A stretch of DNA of 43,232 nucleotides from positions 722,093 through 765,324 of the forward strand of contig RDEW01000031.1 in NCBI GenBank assembly GCA_011109175.1, in the 5' to 3' direction. The notes below the pieces were generated by a model that searched no databases, was not told where the DNA came from, and saw nothing but the letters and a program-made list of their open reading frames with translations. Shown one piece after another: positions 3,055-43,232 of the stretch. Position numbers and translations under genes: made by a program. Every line of letters starts with the position of its first letter. The first letter of the stretch is position 1. The stretch comes from Dicyema japonicum. Lineage: Eukaryota; Dicyemida; Rhombozoa; Dicyemidae.

Positions 3055-3904
3055 ATGTACACTGCTGAAAGTGGATTTATGGAGTCTGGTGGACCTGGCT
3101 ATGGAGAGCGCAGGCCACCAACAAAAACTATGAAAAGGAATTTGAAAGTAGTGCTGGTGAATGCCCGCTTCCTTGTGAAAAGGCATGATGAACTAGCGCT
3201 ACTTGTGAGGATTGCCAAGGTGGATGTCTTGGTAGTCAACGAAACGAAAATCAAACAAGGAAGAAAGTATAATATGAAAGGATATAACTCGGTGGACATT
3301 CCATGGAAAGATGGAGCAGTGGCTGGAACTAGAACTTCAATCTTTTTTCGTAAGGATGGCAAACACGGAACGACTGTATTGTACTGGCCGACGATTCGGA
3401 ATTGTGTCCGTCGATATTCAATGTGGAGGAACATGGATAAGCGTAGGAGGGCTATACTCTAAGGACTTGGCCCGATCTTCTGCGAAAGTTGTCCAATTTT
3501 TCGAAACAAACCCGATGTCGATCGTGGTAGGAGACCTGAATACTAAAAATACGAGCTACGGATGTTGCAAAAACAACGGGGACGGGCGACTCCTTGCAGA
3601 TCTGGTTAGCGAAATTGGAGTTGAAGTCTTGACGTCTGAGGAACCTAACCATTTCTCATACTATGGCGGTGACATGCTTGGATTGGCCATAGTGTCTCCA
3701 CAGCTCCTGGATCATGTAGACAGACCAAGGTTGTTTTGGGACATAGGGAGTGATCATATCCCTCAGGAAATAACTATAAACCTGGAACCAAACATTGCAG
3801 AAGATATTTTCCTATACTACGATACCTCGTCGATAGACTGGGTTCATTATCGTCATTATTTGTCGGAGACCTTATTAATGAAGACTATTTTTTTCTACAC
3901 CTAA
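3055..3904 (+). pseudogene. LINE apurinic-type endonuclease domain, family C ORF2
   Basis: This is the N-terminal endonuclease of ORF2, which nicks target DNA to prime reverse transcription. Catalytic signatures of the exonuclease-endonuclease-phosphatase fold appear in order: the N of VNAR (about 3159), the E of VNETK (about 3238), GDLN in VVGDLNTKNTSYG (about 3528) and SDH in GSDHIP (about 3746). One frameshift near 3375 joins the two frames. All catalytic residues I can identify are kept. The length (about 280 residues) suits Jockey/I-clade endonucleases. It is followed in the same orientation by the linker and the start of the reverse transcriptase. Confidence 0.85.
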
Positions 3905-20829: not shown

Positions 20830-21410
20830 AGTAAATTTCACATTCTTTTCAACCAAACAATTCATTACGAATTTTAACAAATTTTTATAAAACGAGATTT
20901 GCTATTTTTCACGATTGTCACTTTAATTTTGAGTTCTTGCATTTACATTTTCTTCACATTTAAACTTTACTTTAAACAAAATTCATTCCTAATGACAGTT
21001 CTCAGCAAAACGTTAATTCAAATGACAGAATACACGACAATTTTAACCAAACATTTCGTTAATAATTTTAACAAAATTTTTATAAAACGGATTTGCTATT
21101 TTTTCACGATTGTCACTTTAATTTTTGAGTTTCTTGCATTTACATTTTCTTCACAATCTAAACTTTACTTTAAACAAAAATTCATTCCTAATGACAGTCT
21201 CAGCAAACGTTAATTCAAATGACAGAATACACGACAATTTTAACCAAACATTTCGTTAATAATTTTAACAAAATTTTTATAAAACGGATTTGCTATTTTT
21301 TTCACGATTGTCACTTTAATTTTGAGTTCTTGCATTACATTTTCTTCACATTTAAACTTTACTTTAAACAAAAAATTTAACATTTCTCCATGATTGAAGA
21401 TTCTATTTTT
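20830..21410. repeat. Three-unit tandem repeat, about 197 bp per unit
   Basis: The anchor cacgattgtcactttaattt occurs at 20910, 21105 and 21303 (spacings 195 and 198). Units share aaacatttcgttaataattt-like and ttgcatttacattttcttca-like blocks and differ mostly in homopolymer lengths. A diverged single copy is at 9395-9600. The 104-codon plus frame crossing it is a by-product of the repeat. Confidence 0.85.
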
Positions 21411-29219: not shown

Positions 29220-30600
29220 GACGTAGGGTACATAAATATACGCCCGGCAGTTTCTAGGAACAAAAGTGCCGAACTTGATGGCCTTGAGATCGAGACTATA
29301 CTGGTCTCGCCGGATACAGTTTTGAAAGGTAATGGCTGATGATGGCCCAAAGCTTGACAAGTCCACGTGACACCACGTGTGCACAATACAGGCAAACGAC
29401 ACAACGATTTTCTGGAATTCCTCAGAGCTTGATATTTGGAAGATGAGAAGAAGTGGCCATGAATAGACTGGCATCCACGGCTTAACATTTTGTGAGGTAT
29501 TGGCTGATAGTCCAAAGCTCGACTGGACCAGGTGACACCGTGTGTACCCCATAGTGGCAAGCGTCATAACGATTTTATGGAATTTCCCAGAGCTTGACTT
29601 TTTGGGAAATGTGAAGAAGGGGTATGACTAGACTAGTCTTCCTCACTTAATTGTTCGTAAAATAATAGGTGATGACCCAAAGATCGACTCGACCGTGTGA
29701 CACCGCTTGTTCCAAAATACTTCTAAAGGCATAACAATTTACGTTAAAATTTTATAACGTGATTTTGACTATCTCAGAGCTTGATATTGGAAGATGTGAA
29801 AAAGAGGTCATGACTTGACTGGCATCCCCCGTATAAGAGTTTGTAATGTAATTGCTGAGGGTCCAAAGCTCGACTCGACCACGTGACACCGCGTGTGCCC
29901 TATCCCGGCATTCGGCATAACGATTTTGTGGAATTCCTCGAAGCTTGTTTTTTTGGTAGATGTGAAGAAGTTGTCATGTCTAGACTGGTCTCCCCCGCTT
30001 AATAGTTTGTAAGTTAATGGGAGATGGACAAAGCTCGACTCGACCACGTGTCACCGTGTGTGCCAAATACTTGCAAATGCATACAATTTCCGTAAAATTC
30101 TCAGAGCTTGGTTTTTAGGAGATGTTTAGAAATGGTCATGACTAGACTGGTCTCTTGTACTAATGGCTGATTGTCCAATGCTCGACTCAACCAAGTGACA
30201 CCGCGTGTGCCCCATACTGTCAAACGGCATAACGATTTTCTCGAATTTCTCAGAGCTTGGTTCTGGGAAGATGAGAAGAATGGGTCATGACTGACTGGTC
30301 ACACACGGATAACAGTTTTGGAAGGTAATGACTGATGTCCCACAGCTTGACTGAACCACTTGACACCGCGTGTGCCCCATACTAGAAAACGGTATAACGA
30401 TTTTCTAAAATTTTTTAGAGCTTGGTTTTGGGAAAATGTGAAGAAGTGGTCATGGCTAGAATGATCTCCCACGGATAACAGTTTTGGAAGGTAATGACTG
30501 ATAGCCCACAGCTTGACTAGACCACATGACACTACTGGCAAACGAGTAAAACGATTTTCGGGAATCTCTTCGATCTTAGTTTTTCTGGAGAGTCACAGAG
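29220..30600. repeat. Satellite array, about 165-bp unit, eight copies
   Basis: The anchor (t/c)c(c)aaagct(c/t)gac lies near 29348, 29512, 29676, 29861, 30027, 30173, 30340 and 30507 (spacings 146-185, mostly 164-167). Each unit runs gtgacaccgcgtgtgcccca, ataacgattttctggaatt, ctcagagcttg, gaagaagtggtcatgactag, then ggataacagttttggaagg. Pairwise divergence is moderate (roughly 15-25% by eye), so the array is old. The long minus-strand frames across it (29130-29567 and others) are produced by the repetition and share no protein domain. Confidence 0.9.
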
Positions 30601-34519: not shown

Positions 34520-35690
34520 CAACAAATCGTGCACAATTCGAAATAAGAATTTTATATTCTGCCCTTTGCTTGTACACCCCCAGATGATCCAGTCTGTTAG
34601 ACTCCTCCACGTACTTCTAGTGATTGCGATTTTTGGAGGCTGTCTAAGTCCTTAGTTGTCTTCCATGTCTGAGATAGTCATCACGTTTTCGAGTTGTATA
34701 GCAGTAATGCATTGCATAGTCGTACATTTACTGGTCTTTAAACATGCACATATCTCAGTCACGTCGGTTTTAGTCTATTCAGTGCTATTGTTGACAATAT
34801 CTTCGTCAAATATGTCCCCAGTTCATATCCGTAGATGAGAGAGGGCAGTACAACTCTTTCAAAAATAATGATAAACGTCTCATTCAAATCGAGTTTCCCT
34901 GAACCCCAGAAGTACTTGATAAGCTCTTTTCTTCTTCATTTTGTCACCTTCTACATAATCCCTTTACATCCAAAACGGACACACAAAATAACGAAGATGA
35001 TCAACATTGCTGATACAACCCATTGTGTACTCCTGTTGAAAAAACTTTCTAAAGTGTGAAATTCGCATGACTTTCGACTTTTCCATAGAGAGACTTAAGC
35101 CGCAGGATTTGCTCCAGAGAATCTCTTCCAAAATTTCCCACAATCTTCTCTCAGACACTGCTGAAATATTTAAGACGTTCGATATCAGTACATCGTCCGC
35201 GTAAATAATCACGTTCCAGGGAACCAGGAAATTCCTCATAAATAAATTGAATAGCAGAGGACTCTTGCGTTTCTCACAAATGATTTTCTCCTCGACAGAA
35301 GTTTTCTTAACCAATCGATTAAAAGTTTTGGAATTTCAACTGCGACTAGCTGATAAACAGTTTTCATACAAGATATTATCAAAGCAGATGACAATTAGCT
35401 GATATCTGAAATTACGAGCTTTCTAAATTTCAGAATTTAAGATGAAAAACAACTTCTACATGATTTTCCTGGGCGAAAGCCCCAATGTTTCTTGCTGAGA
35501 AAATTCCATGATTCGATATGACCCGTAAGTTTTTGATAAATTAGCCTCTCCATGTTTTGGGGATTGAGTTAATCAGACTACTTGCTTTATTGCGCAGGGG
35601 AGTCTGTCTCGATTTTCCTGGCTTTTGGATTATCTGAATAATGGAGTCATTCTAAGCTTGCGGGACATATGGAAATTTGCTCCATATTAA
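34520..35690 (-). pseudogene. LINE reverse transcriptase relic (Jockey/I-like, related to family A)
   Basis: Minus-strand blocks in order: WNDSIIQIIQKPGK (about 35665-35625), HWGFRPGKSC (about 35495-35470), a degraded stretch, SPLLFNLF (about 35255), then the catalytic IIYADDVLIS (about 35205-35175). These are followed by the thumb (SKSCGLSLSMEKSKVMRI), an ERVVLPSLIYGYEL segment (about 34870-34830) and TWRSLTDWI (about 34600). Multiple frameshifts and stops occur between blocks, although the YADD itself is intact. Domain order and the LPSLIYG ending match families A and B. It is not close enough in DNA to be the same subfamily. Confidence 0.8.
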
Positions 35691-36575: not shown

Positions 36576-36699
36576 TTTGATCCTAATTAACTTTTAGGGA
36601 ACATTAGATGCTTCTACCATCTTTTTTAAGAACCAGATTGTTGGGATTTCTCAGTGTAACAACTTCGTTCACAGTTTCTGTAAAAACTTTCATTAAGGA

Positions 36700-36890
36700 A
36701 CCGGATCGTATAAAGGACTCACACAAAACAAAGAAAAAAAAAGAAGTTAAGAGAATTCTTTGGTACTCCCACTACGATTAGTTATAACATTTTTTAATAA
36801 AATTGAATAATTTATTACGTATTCCAGCTGAGGTAATCAATTGCACAATATTGTGAAAATTAGATTTTAAATTTTCTTGGGGGACAATTC
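36700..36890 (-). pseudogene. Inverted copy of the hypothetical gene at 31.04-31.22 kb
   Basis: On the minus strand, KSNFHNIVQLITSAGIRNKL is followed by FNFIKKCYN and a stop. Similarity continues through the intergenic region (gatccggttcct, shared with 31278-31290). Confidence 0.6.
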
Positions 36891-37171
36891 ATCTTCGAAC
36901 CAGTGGCAGTCGAAACAACAGGAATAATTGGAAGCAGCTCACTGACGCTGATAAACAGGCGAAGAAAAATAACGATAGGAGAAAAAAAAGTTGGCTCATT
37001 GAGGGAAAATGCGTTTTCAATTATGAGAGCAGCCAGCAGTTGTTAACTGTTAGATTTTTCGTTTAAATAAAATTCAGTTAAATTAAAAATAAAATTTTAA
37101 ACTGTTTTTATAAAATAAAAAAAATAAATAAATATAATAAATAAGCGCTCTGGAACTGTGATTTTCTGGTG
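36891..37171. promoter_or_regulatory. Upstream region of the kinesin gene
   Basis: 280 bp lie between the duplicated block and the kinesin ATG. The last 120 bp are A/T-rich with several aaataaa runs. No TATA box or trans-splice signal can be assigned with confidence. Confidence 0.25.
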
Positions 37172-40100
37172 ATGAGTAGGAAAGACAATAGTAACATTAA
37201 AGTGGCAGTTAGGTAAGAATTTATTTACTATATATCAGAGTAAGACCATTAAGCAAAAACTGAATTAGAATTTCAATGTCCATTATATGTTGAAGTATTA
37301 AAGGAAACCTCACAGATCATGATAGGAGGTAATAAGTTTTACACATTCGACCATGTGTTTGATACAAACTCTAAACAGATAGAAATCTACAACCAGTTCG
37401 TCCATAATCTGATAGAAAGGTACTAATTTTAGTTTATATAGTTTTTTCGGCGGTTACAATGCTACTGTGATTGCCTACGGTCAAGTTGACGATTTTTTAA
37501 CGTTTAGACCGGTCTGGTAAATCCTACACTCAATGGGATCATCACTAGATCTCGAACTCTCCGAAGATCTTGTAGGAATAATCCCACGTGCTTTAAGTCA
37601 TTTGTACGCAGAAATTGAGAAGGGACAAGATATCTTATATCAAGTATCGATTCAGTTTGTTGAAGTATGTGACAATTATTATTATAACAGCTTACAATGA
37701 GGATATTAATGATCTTTTGGACTCTGGGTGCAAGAAGAAAATAAGATCCACGAAGACAACCAGGGAGGAATATATCTGATGGGGACAACTACCAAAATCG
37801 TCAGCAGCATTAAGGAGGTCGGATGAATTTTTGAAAAGTAGGTAACTGACCTGCTCAAAGGTGGTTGCCTTCTAAGGACAACCGGGAGCACCAATATGAA
37901 TGAAAAGTCATCCAGATCTCACATTCAATATTCTCTCTAAAATAAAGGAGAGGCCCGTACAAGACGGAAGCACCAATTTCAAGCAAGTCCTTACATCTAA
38001 ACTTAACTTTGTGGACTTGGCTGGGTCTGAACGACTAAAGCGGACCGGTGCCACAGGGAATCGAGCAAAAGAGGGATATCAATAAACTACGGCCTGGTAG
38101 ATCATTCATGACTATTCAGTTCGCTTTGGGCAATGTAATCTCTGCTTTGGCTGAAAAATCCAGGATTGGAACTTATGTGCCTTACAGAGACTCAAAGTTG
38201 ACTAGAATTTTGCAGGACTCTTTGGGAGGGAACAGTAGAACAATTATGTTGGCCTGTGTATCTCCCACTATGAGAGACTGGACGGAGACATCAGGAACTT
38301 TGGAGTACGCTAAGAAAGCCAAAATATTGAAAACAAAGCTGTGATGAACCAGGACTTGAAAATGCAAGAAATTGCATTCCTAAAGATCATATATTAGAGC
38401 TTAAGAGAGAACTAAATATTGTATTACGTTGATTTACCACAGTATAAGTGTGGGGGTTACGAAATCCGTATAAAGGAATTGGAGGAGGAGTTAATGAAGG
38501 TCCAGATGGAGAATGAAAGACTTGTTCAGCACAATGAAGATTCAAAAAATGAAAAGGAGGACACAAAATTAGAAGAAAATTTGAATAACTTGCTTAAACG
38601 GAAGCAGCTGGAGGTATTTTATATAGTGAAATCAGATTGAGTATTTAAAAAGTATAAACAAAGAAACAACTTCAATCAATGCTAAAAGTATAATATATTA
38701 TGACCATTAGCACCAAAACGGAATACTAAAGAATTGGTGGATACACGAATAAAAATGATTGATGAGTGGATTTGCAAATTTTCCGGACTACAAGTAAAAA
38801 TAGACGACATTGAGAAGGATACGTTCAGTTGGATTAAAGTAGCTTGTATGGGAACTTATAGAAACATAATTTTGTGAAACGACGGATTTTAAAGATTAAA
38901 GAAAATTTGGATAAAATTCCCTCTCATAAAACAGTTAAATCAATTTTTATATTTAAGACACAAATTGCCTCCCAAAAAATTAAACTTGAGGAGTTATCGA
39001 CGAGTTTGGAATTTTTAGTTTGAAAGAATAGATGACACAAAATTGCAGTTGAATCATTACCTCTCAAAGAAAGTAAACCTGTGTTGTTTATATTAGAATG
39101 ACTTGAGTTCGGTGGAGGAGTTTGTTACCTTTATGATGGAAGGATTTATTGAAGATAAGCAAATAAAACCTATGTTGATAAATATGATGGCCCAGATGTT
39201 GAATATGTTTGTTTGTGTTGAATATGTAGAACGTACAATTGGAACACAGCAAGAATGAAGGGGCTCTTCTAAGGGCTAGGATATCTAAACTGAACGCTCG
39301 GAGTAGTGTGCGAGCACAACTACTTGGAGATCTTGTCTCTATGATGTCACGAGAGGATGACATACTCGATATTGACCTTAGTCTGATGACAGGAGATTTC
39401 TCTGAAGATAATTCCGAAATGGAAAAAATGTCTGAAAAAGAAAAGACATGGTTTTTTACATTATTACTTTGCAGTGAATCTAACAACGAGACTGTCGATA
39501 TACAGGATAACTATATGTCTGAATTAGACGTATTCGAATATAACGTTTGCAATACGTTTAAGACTAGAATAATCTTCGTCGACGCAGGCTGACCTATTTA
39601 CCAGAGATGATCAAAGATATCCCCATACAAAGGTCAGCTAATACAAGATTAGACGATTCATATGGGTTTATTTTCGACTAATCCTAGAACTGATAGTCTA
39701 ATCAATAAATCTAGGAGGTCCCAAGACGATGACGTCCTCGATTTTGACCATAGTACTATAGCTGGAGATTTCTCGGACGACAATTTTGAAGTATTTAAAT
39801 TGTTTAATGTCAGATAAAGAGTTATTACTTTGCAGTGCATCTAACAACGAGACTGTCGATATACAGGATAACTATATGTCTGAATTAGACGGATTCGAAT
39901 ATAACGTTTGCAATACGTTTAAGACTAGAATAATCTTCGTCGACGCAGGCTGACCTATTTACCAAAGATGATCCAAGACATTGCCATGCAAATGACAGCC
40001 AATACAGGATTAGACGAATCATATGGGTTTATTTTCGACTAATCCTAGAACTGAGAGTCTAATCAATAAATCTAGGAGGTCCCAAGACGATGACGTCCTC

Positions 40101-42687
40101 GATTTTGACCATAGTACTATAGCTGGAGATTTCTCGGACGACAATTTTGAAGGTATTTAATTGTTTAATGTCAGATAAAGAGTTATTACTTTGCAGTGCA
40201 TCTAACAACGAGACTGTCGATATACAGGATAACTATATGTCTGAATTAGACGTATTCGAATATAACGTTTGCAATACGTTTAAGACTAGAATAATCTTCG
40301 TCGACGCAGGCTGACCTATTTACAAAGATGATCCAAGACATTGCCATGCAAATGACAGCCAATACAGGATTAGACGAATCATATGGGTTTATTTTCGACT
40401 AATCCTAGAACTGAGAGTCTAATCAATAAATCTAGGAGGTCCCAAGACGATGACGTCCTCGATTTTGACCATAGTACTATAGCTGGAGATTTCTCGGACG
40501 ACAATTTTGAAGGTATTTAATTGTTTAATGTCAGATAAAGAGTTATTACTTTGCAGTGCATCTAACAACGAGACTGTCGATATACAGGATAACTATATGT
40601 CTGAATTAGACGGATTCGAATATAACGTTTGCAATACGTTTAAGACTAGAATAATCTTCGTCGACGCAGGCTGACCTATTTACCAGAGATGATCAAAGAT
40701 ATCCCCATACAAAGGTCAGCTAATACAAGATTAGACGAATCATATGGGTTTATTTTCGACTAATCCTAGAACTGATAGTTTAATCAATAAATCTAGTATG
40801 TCCAAAGACGATGACGTCCTCATTGACCATAGTACTATAGCTGGAGATTTCTCGGACGACAATTTTGAAGGTATTTAATGTTTAATGTCAGATAAAAGAG
40901 TTATTACTTTGCAGTGCATCTAACAACGAGACTGTCGATATACAGGATAAACTATATGTCTGAATTAGACGGATTCGAATATAACGTTTGCAATACGTTT
41001 AAGACTAGAATAATCTTCGTCGACGCAGGCTGACCTATTTACCAGAGATGATCAAAGATTATCCCATGCAAAGGTCAGCCAATACAGATTAGACGATCAT
41101 ATGGGTTTATTTTCGACTAATCCTAGAACTGATAGTTTAATCAATAAATCTAGTATTGCCCAGACGATGACGTCCTCGATTTTGACCATAGTACTATAGC
41201 TGGAGATTTCTCGACGACAATTTTGAAGTATTTAATTGTTTAATGTCAGATAAAGAGTTATTACTTTGCAGTGCATCTAACAACGAGACTGTCGATATAC
41301 AGGATAACTATATGTCTGAATTAGACGTATTCGAATATAACGTTTGCAATACGTTTAGACTAGAATAATCTTCGTCGACGCAGGCTGACCTATTTACCAA
41401 AGATGATCAAAGATATTGCCATGCAAATGACAGCCAATACAGGATTAGACGAATCATATGGGTTTATTTTCGACTAATCCTAGAACTGATAGTTTAATCA
41501 ATAAATCTAGTATGTCCAAAGACGATGACGTCCTCGATTTTGACCATAGTTCTATAGCTGGAGATTTCTCGGACGACAATTTTGAAGGTATTTAATTGTT
41601 TAATGTCAGATAAAGAGTTATTACTTTGCAGTGCATCTAACAACGAGACTGTCGATATACAGGATAACTATATGTCTGAATTAGACGTATTCGAATATAA
41701 CGTTTGCAATACGTTTAAGACTAGAATAATCTTCGTCGACGCAGGCTGACCTATTACCAAAGATGATCAAAGATATTTGCCATGCAAATGACAGCCAATA
41801 CAGGATTAGACGAATCATATGGGTTTAATTTTCGACTAATCCTAGAACTGATAGTTTAATCAATAAATCTAGTATGTCCAAAGACGATGACGTCCTCGAT
41901 TTTGACCATAGTACTATAGCTGGAGATTTCTCGGACGACAATTTTGAAGGTATTTAATTGTTTAATGTCAGTAAAGAGTATTACTTTGCAGTGCATCTAA
42001 CAACGAGACTGTCGATATACAGGATAACTATATGTCTGAATTAGACGGATTCGAATATAACGTTTGCAATACGTTTAAGACTAGAATAATCTTCGTCGAC
42101 GCAGGCTGACCTATTTACCAAAAGATGATCAAAGATATTGCCATGCAAAATGACAGCCAATACAGGATTAGAACGAATCATATGGGTTTATTTTCGACTA
42201 ATCCTAGAACTGATAGTTTAATCAATAAATCTAGTATGTCCAAAGACGATGACGTCCTCGATTTTGACCATAGTACTATAGCTGGAGATTTTGGACGACA
42301 ATTTTGAGGTATTTAATTGTTTAATGTCAGATAAAGAGTTATTACTTTGCAGTGCATCTAACAACGAGACTGTCGATATACAGGATAACTATATGTCTGA
42401 ATTAGACGTATTCGAATATAACGTTTGCAATACGTTTAAGACTAGAATAATCTTTCGTCGACGCAGGCTGACCTATTTACCAAAGATGATCAAAGATATT
42501 GCCATGCAAATGACAGCCAATACAGGATTAGACGAATCATATGGGTTTATTTTCGACTAATCCTAGAACTGATAGTTTAATCAATAAATCTAGTATGTCC
42601 CAAGACGATGACGTCCTCGATTTTGACCATAGTACTATAGCTGGAGATTTCTCGGAGGACGATGACGAGTTTGATAAAAAAAATTGA
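37172..42687 (+). CDS. KIF21: KIF21-type (kinesin-4 family) kinesin with tandem-repeat tail
   Basis: A microtubule motor. ATG at 37172 opens [18 protein letters not shown]. After splicing out mini-introns the motor reads [20 protein letters not shown], the P-loop TGSGKSYT (37508-37531, with frame errors), [43 protein letters not shown] (switch I), [21 protein letters not shown] (switch II region), [32 protein letters not shown] and [21 protein letters not shown] is characteristic of KIF21, not KIF4. A helical stalk follows (38460-39350; [21 protein letters not shown]-like [15 protein letters not shown]), shorter than in vertebrate KIF21. Nine 95-residue repeats come next, then TGA 42685-42687. 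No WD40 domain is found. About ten one-base indels break exons, yet no in-frame nonsense substitution is evident; I infer sequence errors. It is convergent with the transposase fragment at 42.8 kb. Confidence 0.85.
37213..39229 (+). other. Thirteen mini-introns (19-26 nt) in motor and stalk
   Basis: Positions: 37213-37238 (26), 37420-37441 (22), 37485-37507 (23), 37669-37690 (22; or 26 from 37665), 37838-37860 (23), 38097-38119 (23), 38428-38448 (21, less certain), 38614-38635 (22), 38688-38710 (23), 38839-38861 (23), 38934-38957 (24, also readable as coding), 39073-39096 (24), 39211-39229 (19; or 23 from 39207). All start GT and end AG. Most contain stops or break the frame if retained. Removing them reconnects conserved kinesin motifs (YGQ to TG at 37485-37507; INYGL to FALGN at 38097-38119) without losing or adding residues. 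Confidence 0.8.
39355..42687 (+). repeat. Nine tandem units of about 360 bp, each 95 codons plus three mini-introns
   Basis: The anchor caacgagactgtcgata occurs at 39484, 39845, 40206, 40566, 40924, 41281, 41641, 42001 and 42362 (spacings 357-361). One consensus unit of 361 bp is exon a 103 nt, intron 32 nt (gtttaag...gacgcag), exon b 78 nt, intron 22 nt (gtttattttc...cctag), exon c 104 nt, intron 22 nt (gtatttaatt...tgtcag). Exons sum to 285 nt = 95 codons and phases match across unit borders. Conserved residues include [32 protein letters not shown] and [19 protein letters not shown]. The first unit is diverged ([20 protein letters not shown]) and grades into the stalk; the last ends in an acidic-lysine tail and TGA. 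Units are over 95% identical in both exons and introns. Confidence 0.9.
39555..42567 (+). other. Intron series inside the array (about 26 introns)
   Basis: The 32-nt intron starts near 39555, 39916, 40277, 40637, 40996, 41352, 41713, 42073 and 42434. The 22-nt gtttattttc intron starts near 39666, 40029, 40389, 40748, 41106, 41465, 41823, 42187 and 42545. The 22-nt gtatttaatt intron starts near 39791, 40152, 40512, 40869, 41227, 41587, 41948 and 42307. GT and AG ends are kept in essentially all copies. In unit 1 the last type is replaced by a 24-base stretch (39450-39473) readable as intron or coding. Confidence 0.75.
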
Positions 42688-42818
42688 AGATTAATTAAAT
42701 TTTGTTAAAAGTTGATTTTCTTTATAAAATTATTATTCAGTTTATTATTATATAAAAAAATGTCTTTTGTTCACAAGCTCTCTTATTCGCAACATATATA
42801 ATATTGTTTGTTTTACGA

Positions 42819-43125
42819 TCATATTTCTTTAAGCACTGAGGATTTTTTACTTTTATCACTAAAATAATGGATTGCAAATTTTTCTATTTTTGAACGACAA
42901 AGCAATGCTATAATTTTTTCTCTGTCTCTTTTTTCATTGCAATTTGATGACAGTAGTGCATACGAATAGCTGTGTTGCCTTTTCAAATAAATGCATGTTT
43001 CATCACAGTTATAATTTTTTTTCTGGAAAATAAGCACGATTTAGACAAAAATGATTGTATATTTTTCTAAATTTCTTAGCTATTCTTTCCACGACTGTTT
43101 TTTTTAGTTCAATATCGTTGGCCAT
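42819..43125 (-). pseudogene. pogo/Tigger-like (DDE_1) transposase fragment
   Basis: On the minus strand, ATG at 43123-43125 opens MANDIELKKTVVERIAKKF and RKIYNHFCLNRAYFPEKK. A one-base break in an A-run (about 43020) leads to NYNCDETCIYLKRQHSYSY, EKRDREKIIALLCRS and SDKSKKSSVL, ending TGA 42819-42821. The segment Y/F-N-x-D-E-T, followed by K-x-R-x-T-x-L-L-C and K-S-x-x-P, is the first catalytic aspartate region of pogo/Tigger/CENP-B-type transposases. Only about 95 residues are present and the second and third catalytic acids are missing, so it is a truncated relic or a domesticated fragment. It converges on the kinesin, 131 bp apart. Confidence 0.6.
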
Positions 43126-43232
43126 TACTCTTTAAGAACTTTTTTGTTCTAATGATTTCCTTAGCAATCTTGTTTTTGGCATTTGAATCAAGTTTCAATT
43201 CTCTTTTTGATGTCATAGAGGTTAATTACAAA
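43126..43232. other. Window end, upstream of the transposase fragment
   Basis: A minus-strand frame beginning ATGACATCAAAAAGAG (about 43215) reads KLDSNAKNKIAKEIIRTKKF for about 30 codons and overlaps the transposase start out of frame. With a mini-intron or one-base correction it could be its 5' part. Confidence 0.3.

Follow-up and report, generated by a model that had tools for sequence, protein, structure and literature searches.

Tandem coding modules with introns inside them are known from the kringle IV array of apolipoprotein(a), where they are repeated within one gene. The introns reported for the dicyemids Dicyema acuticephalum and Dicyema japonicum have GT-AG ends. In the available parts of the reports their length was given as 26.2 +/- 1.9 nt for D. 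acuticephalum (n = 16; PMC2222250) and as 38.2 bp on average for D. japonicum, with 6.2 introns per gene (PMC6736024). For the kinesin KIF21A, the available part of another report describes a KANK-binding domain (KBD; PMC9145010), and KBD structures are present in the PDB (5ybu, 5ybv, 5yay). By title, a kinesin with a tail array like that of the locus analyzed here was not found among the matches listed in the open-licence literature on kinesin, KIF21, and dicyemids. The locus, from D. japonicum, is probably a diverged KIF21 duplicate with an amplified linker, the motor of which has been kept under selection and the frame breaks of which are mostly assembly errors; we assign this reading a probability of roughly 0.6.

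The window, i.e., the whole stretch of DNA that was analyzed, has 43,232 bases and forms the end of contig C117 (positions 722093–765324 of 765324), and the gene is located at the contig end. Tandem Repeats Finder identified a single strong array in the window (39461–42660, period 361, 8.9 copies, 96% matches), and anchoring on TTACTTTGCAG resolved it into nine units of 361, 361, 360, 358, 357, 360, 360, 361, and 335 nt. Kinesin exons lie directly 5' of the array and are continuous with it, in agreement with the preliminary description of nine tandem units joined to a kinesin. Repeat finding, anchoring, and the consensus place the array on the plus strand at 39475–42687, with unit u1 at 39475–39835 and the following units extending to 40196 (u2), 40556 (u3), 40914 (u4), 41271 (u5), 41631 (u6), 41991 (u7), 42352 (u8), and 42687 (u9); the last unit ends with the stop codon TGA (42685–42687). 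The consensus unit of 361 nt consists of 294 coding nt and introns of 23, 22, and 22 nt. It thus has 98 codons and is open across all of them, and it is better supported than the unit of 95 codons proposed initially. Every unit has stops in its plain frames, as had been noted before, and the longest open frame inside the unspliced array encodes 92 aa. Other tandem repeats of the window are found at 20847–21374 (197 bp), 29363–29705 (165 bp), and 30029–30300 (149 bp).

The repeat had not been recognized at first, and its origin was found within the same genome. In a DNA search of the contigs (64.7 Mb, 191 contigs) with a 401-base piece spanning one unit, the only contig matched besides C117 with its array was C101, in two short stretches of 81–85% identity, and a search with a 1.5-kb piece of C101 returned only two loci, one on C101 and one on C117. 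At the C101 locus (L009, minus strand) the kinesin of the window is present from its 5' end onward, yet it contains one copy of the linker instead of about nine, and WD40-like sequence follows the linker. The splice model of the C101 gene is almost open and has 1367 codons, of which the last approximately 25 up to the stop are doubtful, and 27 intron segments. Under the GT-AG ends required by the model, 25 of the 27 introns are 20–26 nt long and two have 40 nt, one of which is reduced to 23 nt if a frame break at KEG-ICIN is allowed. The introns are of the same size class and at the same places as those of the window gene. This agrees with the earlier proposal that exons and introns were copied together and that the array grew at the DNA level. 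When the C101 motor was aligned to its own protein with KEG-ICIN restored, 1 frameshift was found in 367 codons, at a GGG run, and the window has it too. The base absent after KEG in both KIF21 motors (L009 about 7000, minus strand; window 38077) might be an error common to both copies, a common lesion, or an unusual intron.

Several lines of evidence identify the C101 gene. Its motor is recognized by the Pfam Kinesin profile (PF00225, E=5.7e-70), and its best solved relatives are 7x4n ('Kinesin-like protein') and then KIF4. A search of 5.8 billion proteins yielded 7985 matches; the 120 listed are called KIF21A, KIF21B, 31E, or KIF4_21_27, or have unspecific names or none, and KIF21 names prevail among these 120 of 7985. 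In an alignment with ten KIF21 orthologues the C101 linker sits between the stalk and the WD40 part, and its NVKKKRRMT lies opposite KARRKT or KARRRT of the orthologues. The C-terminal GCRDGVVHLWND falls on a WD40 blade in the multiple alignment, while the score with the WD40 profile (PF00400) is 17.2 bits, below the cut-off of 27. By its sequence, the C101 gene is a KIF21 gene (kinesin-4) and the parent of the window copy, and the repeat corresponds to the KIF21 tail linker, which is single copy on C101. A general mixture of two species in the assembly was also considered; matches of the CCT/HSP60 family were found at nine loci, read as eight CCT genes and one HSP60 gene, which makes such a mixture unlikely.

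Each unit contains three GT...AG segments, as had been described, and the third falls between units. All three are on the plus strand. Intron A, of 23 nt (GTTTGCAATACGTTTAAGACTAG, within 39545–42445), was placed by splice-aware alignment and has the C101 counterpart GTTTGCAACACGTTTGAGATTAG; it starts at 39545, 39906, 40267, 40627, 40986, 41342 (22 nt), 41702, 42062, and 42423. Intron B, of 22 nt (GTTTATTTTCGACTAATCCTAG, within 39666–42566), was placed by splice-aware alignment, with starts at 39666, 40027, 40387, 40748, 41105, 41462, 41823 (23 nt), 42186, and 42545. Intron C, of 22 nt (GTATTTAATTGTTTAATGTCAG, within 39791–42330), lies between the units; its starts are 39791 (23 nt), 40153, 40513, 40871 (21 nt), 41228, 41588, 41950, and 42309. 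It differs from its C101 counterpart in 1 of 22 bases.

Of the intron sizes given initially, 32, 22, and 22 nt, the latter two were retained, while the first most likely has to be shortened to 23 nt. The frame of the unit is kept by two partitions, and 103/32/78/22/104/22 is one of them. Since by reading the 32-nt version also keeps the frame in C101, the frame does not decide. Several observations favor 23 nt. In the 20 nt directly downstream of the 23-nt intron, 10 bases differ between C101 and the array, and yet the encoded residues are basic in both (KKKRR in C101, RRRR in the array); a 32-nt intron would remove most codons of this basic cluster. Furthermore, 22–24 nt is the common intron size in the gene. 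A basic (K)ARRxT is found in KIF21 orthologues at about that place, which is a weak argument because the array exon is not recognized by the KBD profile (see below). The 23-nt intron differs between the array and C101 in 3 of 23 bases. The use of both sites is possible.

The introns have changed little since the duplication. Ten of the twelve introns are equal in length in the two copies and were compared. Between the window and C101, 12 of their 191 inner sites differ, compared with 84.5 of 399.7 synonymous sites (P=2e-6); there is no difference between intron divergence and nonsynonymous divergence (P=0.62). The higher conservation of intron sites than of synonymous sites argues that the mini-introns have been kept in both KIF21 copies. 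Among the units, 31 exon columns and 4 intron columns are variable in the raw count (P=0.18 for an intron count this low). Once 9 columns (5 exon, 4 intron), which were judged by eye to be one-base shifts in u1 and u7, have been removed, 26 and 0 remain (P=0.004), and we lean on neither count.

Upstream of the array, the window copy is composed of parts that can be aligned with C101. The motor domain and neck exons (37172–38420, plus strand, ATG at 37172) were placed by splice-aware alignment to the C101 protein and by the motor matches on C117 in the genome search. They contain mini-introns of 22–26 nt and 8 apparent frameshifts in 359 codons, one of them in the P-loop stretch. The C101 alignment places the first part of the stalk at 38443–38585 and the rest at 38586–39343, both on the plus strand, and the latter has five mini-introns (22, 23, 23, 24, and 23 nt) and 2 apparent frameshifts. 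At the junction between them (38585/38586, plus strand) about 0.9 kb of the C101 stalk is absent, as is evident from a BLAST alignment that skips from subject position 1513 to 2426 of C101. The DNA identity to C101 is 91% over the first 1.45 kb, comprising the motor and the stalk start, and 88% in the 0.97 kb that follow.

The start of the tail linker is present once at 39344–39474 (plus strand), as revealed by the C101 alignment and the reading of both sequences, and its homologue in the units is exon C. It had been described as a diverged first unit. It does differ from the others, lacking intron C and ending in a 24-nt intron-like segment that is a multiple of 3 and stop-free. The 24-nt segment (GTTTTTT...TTACTTTGCAG) was observed in this part of the window and at L009 4681–4658 on the minus strand of C101, where the counterpart is GTTTTTTGTATTATTACTTTGCAG. 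The array units keep just its 3' half, translated as ELLLC. The segment could be a fourth intron, and the frame is kept whether it is retained or removed.

A WD40 part was not seen in the 545 nt from the stop codon to the contig end, which are mostly dispersed repeat, and it might lie beyond the contig end. This repeat (42711–43232) starts 24 nt past the stop, reaches the end of C117, and is found on 14 other contigs with 77–89% identity; several other copies are longer by about 0.26–0.29 kb at query position 386–387. The 5' flank at 36600–37072 likewise consists of repeats with a high copy number (40 of 969 first-look candidates were scored). Elsewhere in the window, a scan of 10 open frames revealed two retroelement remnants, those of an endonuclease-reverse transcriptase (3278–3904, plus strand; PF14529, E 4e-9) and of a reverse transcriptase (34964–35335, minus strand; PF00078, E 2e-7).

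Comparison of the two copies was used to assess the selection on the window gene. Ka/Ks was 0.16 for the motor (95% interval 0.10–0.25; 359 codons), 0.92 for the first part of the stalk (0.25–3.73; 49 codons), and 0.27 for the second part of the stalk with the linker start (0.15–0.49; 237 codons); over all segments it was 0.23, with a Ks of 0.25. A copy that had been dead since the duplication would be expected to have a Ka/Ks of about 0.5 or more. The values for the motor and for the second part of the stalk with the linker start point to purifying selection since the duplication, and a pseudogene dating from the duplication itself was rejected on the basis of Ka/Ks. The protein-coding history that had been proposed for the array gains support from the motor value, from the C101 parent, which reads through, and from introns that are no more diverged than nonsynonymous sites. 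The array itself shows no significant amino-acid constraint. Its consensus has a Ka/Ks of 0.63 against the C101 linker (0.36–1.15), which is indistinguishable from 1, and 67.5 of about 220 nonsynonymous sites differ, yet the unit is open. The changes among the units, 24 nonsynonymous, 6 synonymous, and 1 stop, correspond to a neutral ratio. This ratio, like the stops in the plain frames and the maximum of 92 aa, would also be found in a non-coding satellite that merely resembles exons. Such an origin is very improbable, because the homologous segment represents the linker exons of the KIF21 gene on C101 and because the 98 codons of the consensus unit are uninterrupted by stops. Homology and the open consensus together speak for the coding nature of the array, and its coding origin is firm.

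Amino-acid changes are unevenly distributed between the copies. Derived changes number 17 on the window side and 6 on the C101 side, with 10 ties. Where at least 15 of 16 orthologues agree, the window has a different residue in 9 columns and C101 in 1, some of these being beside indels. The surplus on the window side would fit a duplicate that was functional for long and was then lost recently, so that the array would now be a decaying coding satellite beside repeat-rich DNA. The neutral ratio among the units, the missing parts of the stalk and WD40, and the dispersed repeats on both flanks point in the same direction. The time since such a death is limited by the Ka/Ks of the motor, and the introns are still conserved. 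We regard a recently dead duplicate as rather doubtful, and the frame breaks bear on it as well.

As assembled, the letters of the window copy do not form an open frame, with 8 frameshifts in the motor, 2 in the stalk, and 13 in the array. The latter were found by splice-aware protein-to-DNA alignment across the nine units (860 codons). Only four of the nine units (u1, u2, u4, and u6) are free of frameshifts and stops, and in three of the eight junctions between units (u1, u5, and u8) one base is missing in front of intron C. The perfect closure of phases from unit to unit, as first described, could not be upheld. HSP70 genes are essential, and in this assembly four of them (C45, C53, C65, and C66; L055–L059) have 8 frameshifts in 2094 codons, or about 1.3 per kilobase. 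Therefore, errors occur elsewhere in the assembly too; frame-based readings can be misled by such base-level errors, and frame checks on this assembly must allow for them. At the HSP70 rate, 1.4 frameshifts would be expected in the 359 codons of the motor, in contrast to the 8 observed (P=9e-5), and 3.3 in the 860 codons of the array, in contrast to 13 (P=4e-5). The frame breaks of the window are four to six times denser than those of the HSP70 genes, and error at the HSP70 level alone is insufficient to explain them. The density in the motor, including the lesion in the P-loop stretch, again speaks for a recently dead copy.

The kind of lesion argues otherwise. In u1–u8 (u9 was left out), there are 20 indel events, 17 of which are single-base and 18 of which change the length of a base run. 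The same units have 19 private substitutions, 8 of them beside indels and at most 11 away from indels. Of these 11, six (u1 columns 324–329, u7 354–355) resemble shifts next to indels and another two (u5 147 and 149) may be shifts, leaving about 3 plain substitutions by eye. In ordinary decay substitutions outnumber indels, which is the opposite of the ratio in the array. The lesions of the motor are, by eye, less restricted to base runs than those of the array. Poor read support at the contig end would fit both the dense breaks and the indels in base runs, and most of the frame breaks are best read as assembly errors near the contig end.

The same features raise the question whether the array, or its copy number, could be an artefact of repeat assembly. 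Base-run indels are abundant, and the window ends exactly where C117 ends, inside a dispersed repeat. Nevertheless, an assembly construct is improbable: the units form subtypes defined by shared substitutions, which are not expected from one mis-assembled unit, and apart from the single linker on C101, a unit used as the query had no match outside C117.

For the preferred reading, a diverged duplicate with an amplified linker, the following origin is proposed. After the duplication of the KIF21 (kinesin-4) gene, the motor of the window copy remained under selection, and the copy lost about 0.9 kb of the stalk and, to judge from the sequence up to the contig end, the WD40 part. The linker has two short stretches that resemble each other, one at the 3' end (TCTAGGATG) and one at the 5' end (TCTATGATG). 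An exchange between them may then have joined the linker end in frame to the linker start, creating the 361-bp unit. The exon that joins the units is indeed a chimera, its first part matching C101 GATAAATCTAGGATGACC (linker end) and its second part TCTATGATGTCTCGAGAGGATGACGTCC (linker start). Because TCTA-GATG is common to both stretches in the same frame, a single exchange would give an in-frame junction. Unequal exchange could subsequently have led to about nine units, one unit adding 98 residues. As each unit has three GT-AG introns in the same phases, any whole number of units would keep the frame. In addition, the introns are very short, and a donor would therefore most likely pair with its own acceptor 22–23 nt away; this intron definition would prevent mis-pairing among near-identical introns.

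The array encodes acidic stretches that alternate with one basic cluster per unit, and the predicted product would have a long tail of such stretches and clusters in place of the WD40 part. That a living protein is made from the window copy has close to even odds. A more specific version is possible, although we lean slightly against it, namely a living KIF21 paralogue in which about nine linker modules have replaced the WD40 part, splicing is faithful, and the length of the tail is evolvable. It would have one transcript with some 38 introns of 21–26 nt, 26 of which are near-identical tandem copies, and units could be gained, lost, or skipped without loss of the frame. If the protein is made, the gene would be a natural test of the spliceosome on some two dozen introns that are nearly identical and close to the minimum size, for which intron definition predicts clean removal and exon definition predicts the skipping of units. 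It would, moreover, clearly exemplify how a motor protein can replace the domain at its C-terminus with a repeated linker through in-frame exchange within exons. If the copy has died recently, it would be a pseudogene of the ordinary kind in which a coding satellite has expanded.

The position of the linker suggested that the tail might be a multivalent KANK binder. In a multiple alignment the KBD of KIF21A agrees with the linker in its place in the protein and in the basic cluster before Thr (RRxT), but the match to the KBD profile is poor and no KANK gene was recognized in the genome. With a profile of 37 KIF21 KBD segments, the C101 linker scored 0.5 bits, a value reached by 2 of the 134 shuffles listed of 200, and the array unit scored -7.1 bits, which was reached by all 99 shuffles listed of 200. 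In six frames, the C101 exon had 1.2 bits (E 35) and three in-frame array exons had -3.6 to -4.2 bits; the frames of the window that scored about 2 bits are out of frame. The KN motif (PF12075) had 0 matches in the genome and likewise 0 in 14 control genomes. The ankyrin part of human KANK1 as a query detected four ankyrin-like exons (best E 2.7e-6), and by eye the open frames at three of these four loci are not KANK-like. The idea of a KANK-binding tail was not adopted. Homologues of the tail were not found at E<=1 among 1743 candidates.

In comparison with known systems, the KIF21 gene of this genome has the same motor, order of parts, and linker between stalk and WD40 as KIF21A and KIF21B (kinesin-4; fly-type 31E). 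The window copy differs from these in that about 0.9 kb of the stalk and, up to the contig end, the WD40 part are missing, and in that the linker is present about nine times and not once. The introns of the array resemble the dicyemid mini-introns, as far as the available parts of the reports describe them, in their size class and likewise in their GT-AG ends, whereas here about 26 near-identical copies are arranged in tandem within one gene. With the kringle IV array of apolipoprotein(a) the window array shares a coding module that has been copied together with its introns, compatible phases, and a free copy number. The units of apolipoprotein(a) are of kilobase size and encode a folded domain, whereas those of the window array comprise only 361 bp, have introns of 22–23 nt, and are derived from the linker of a kinesin.
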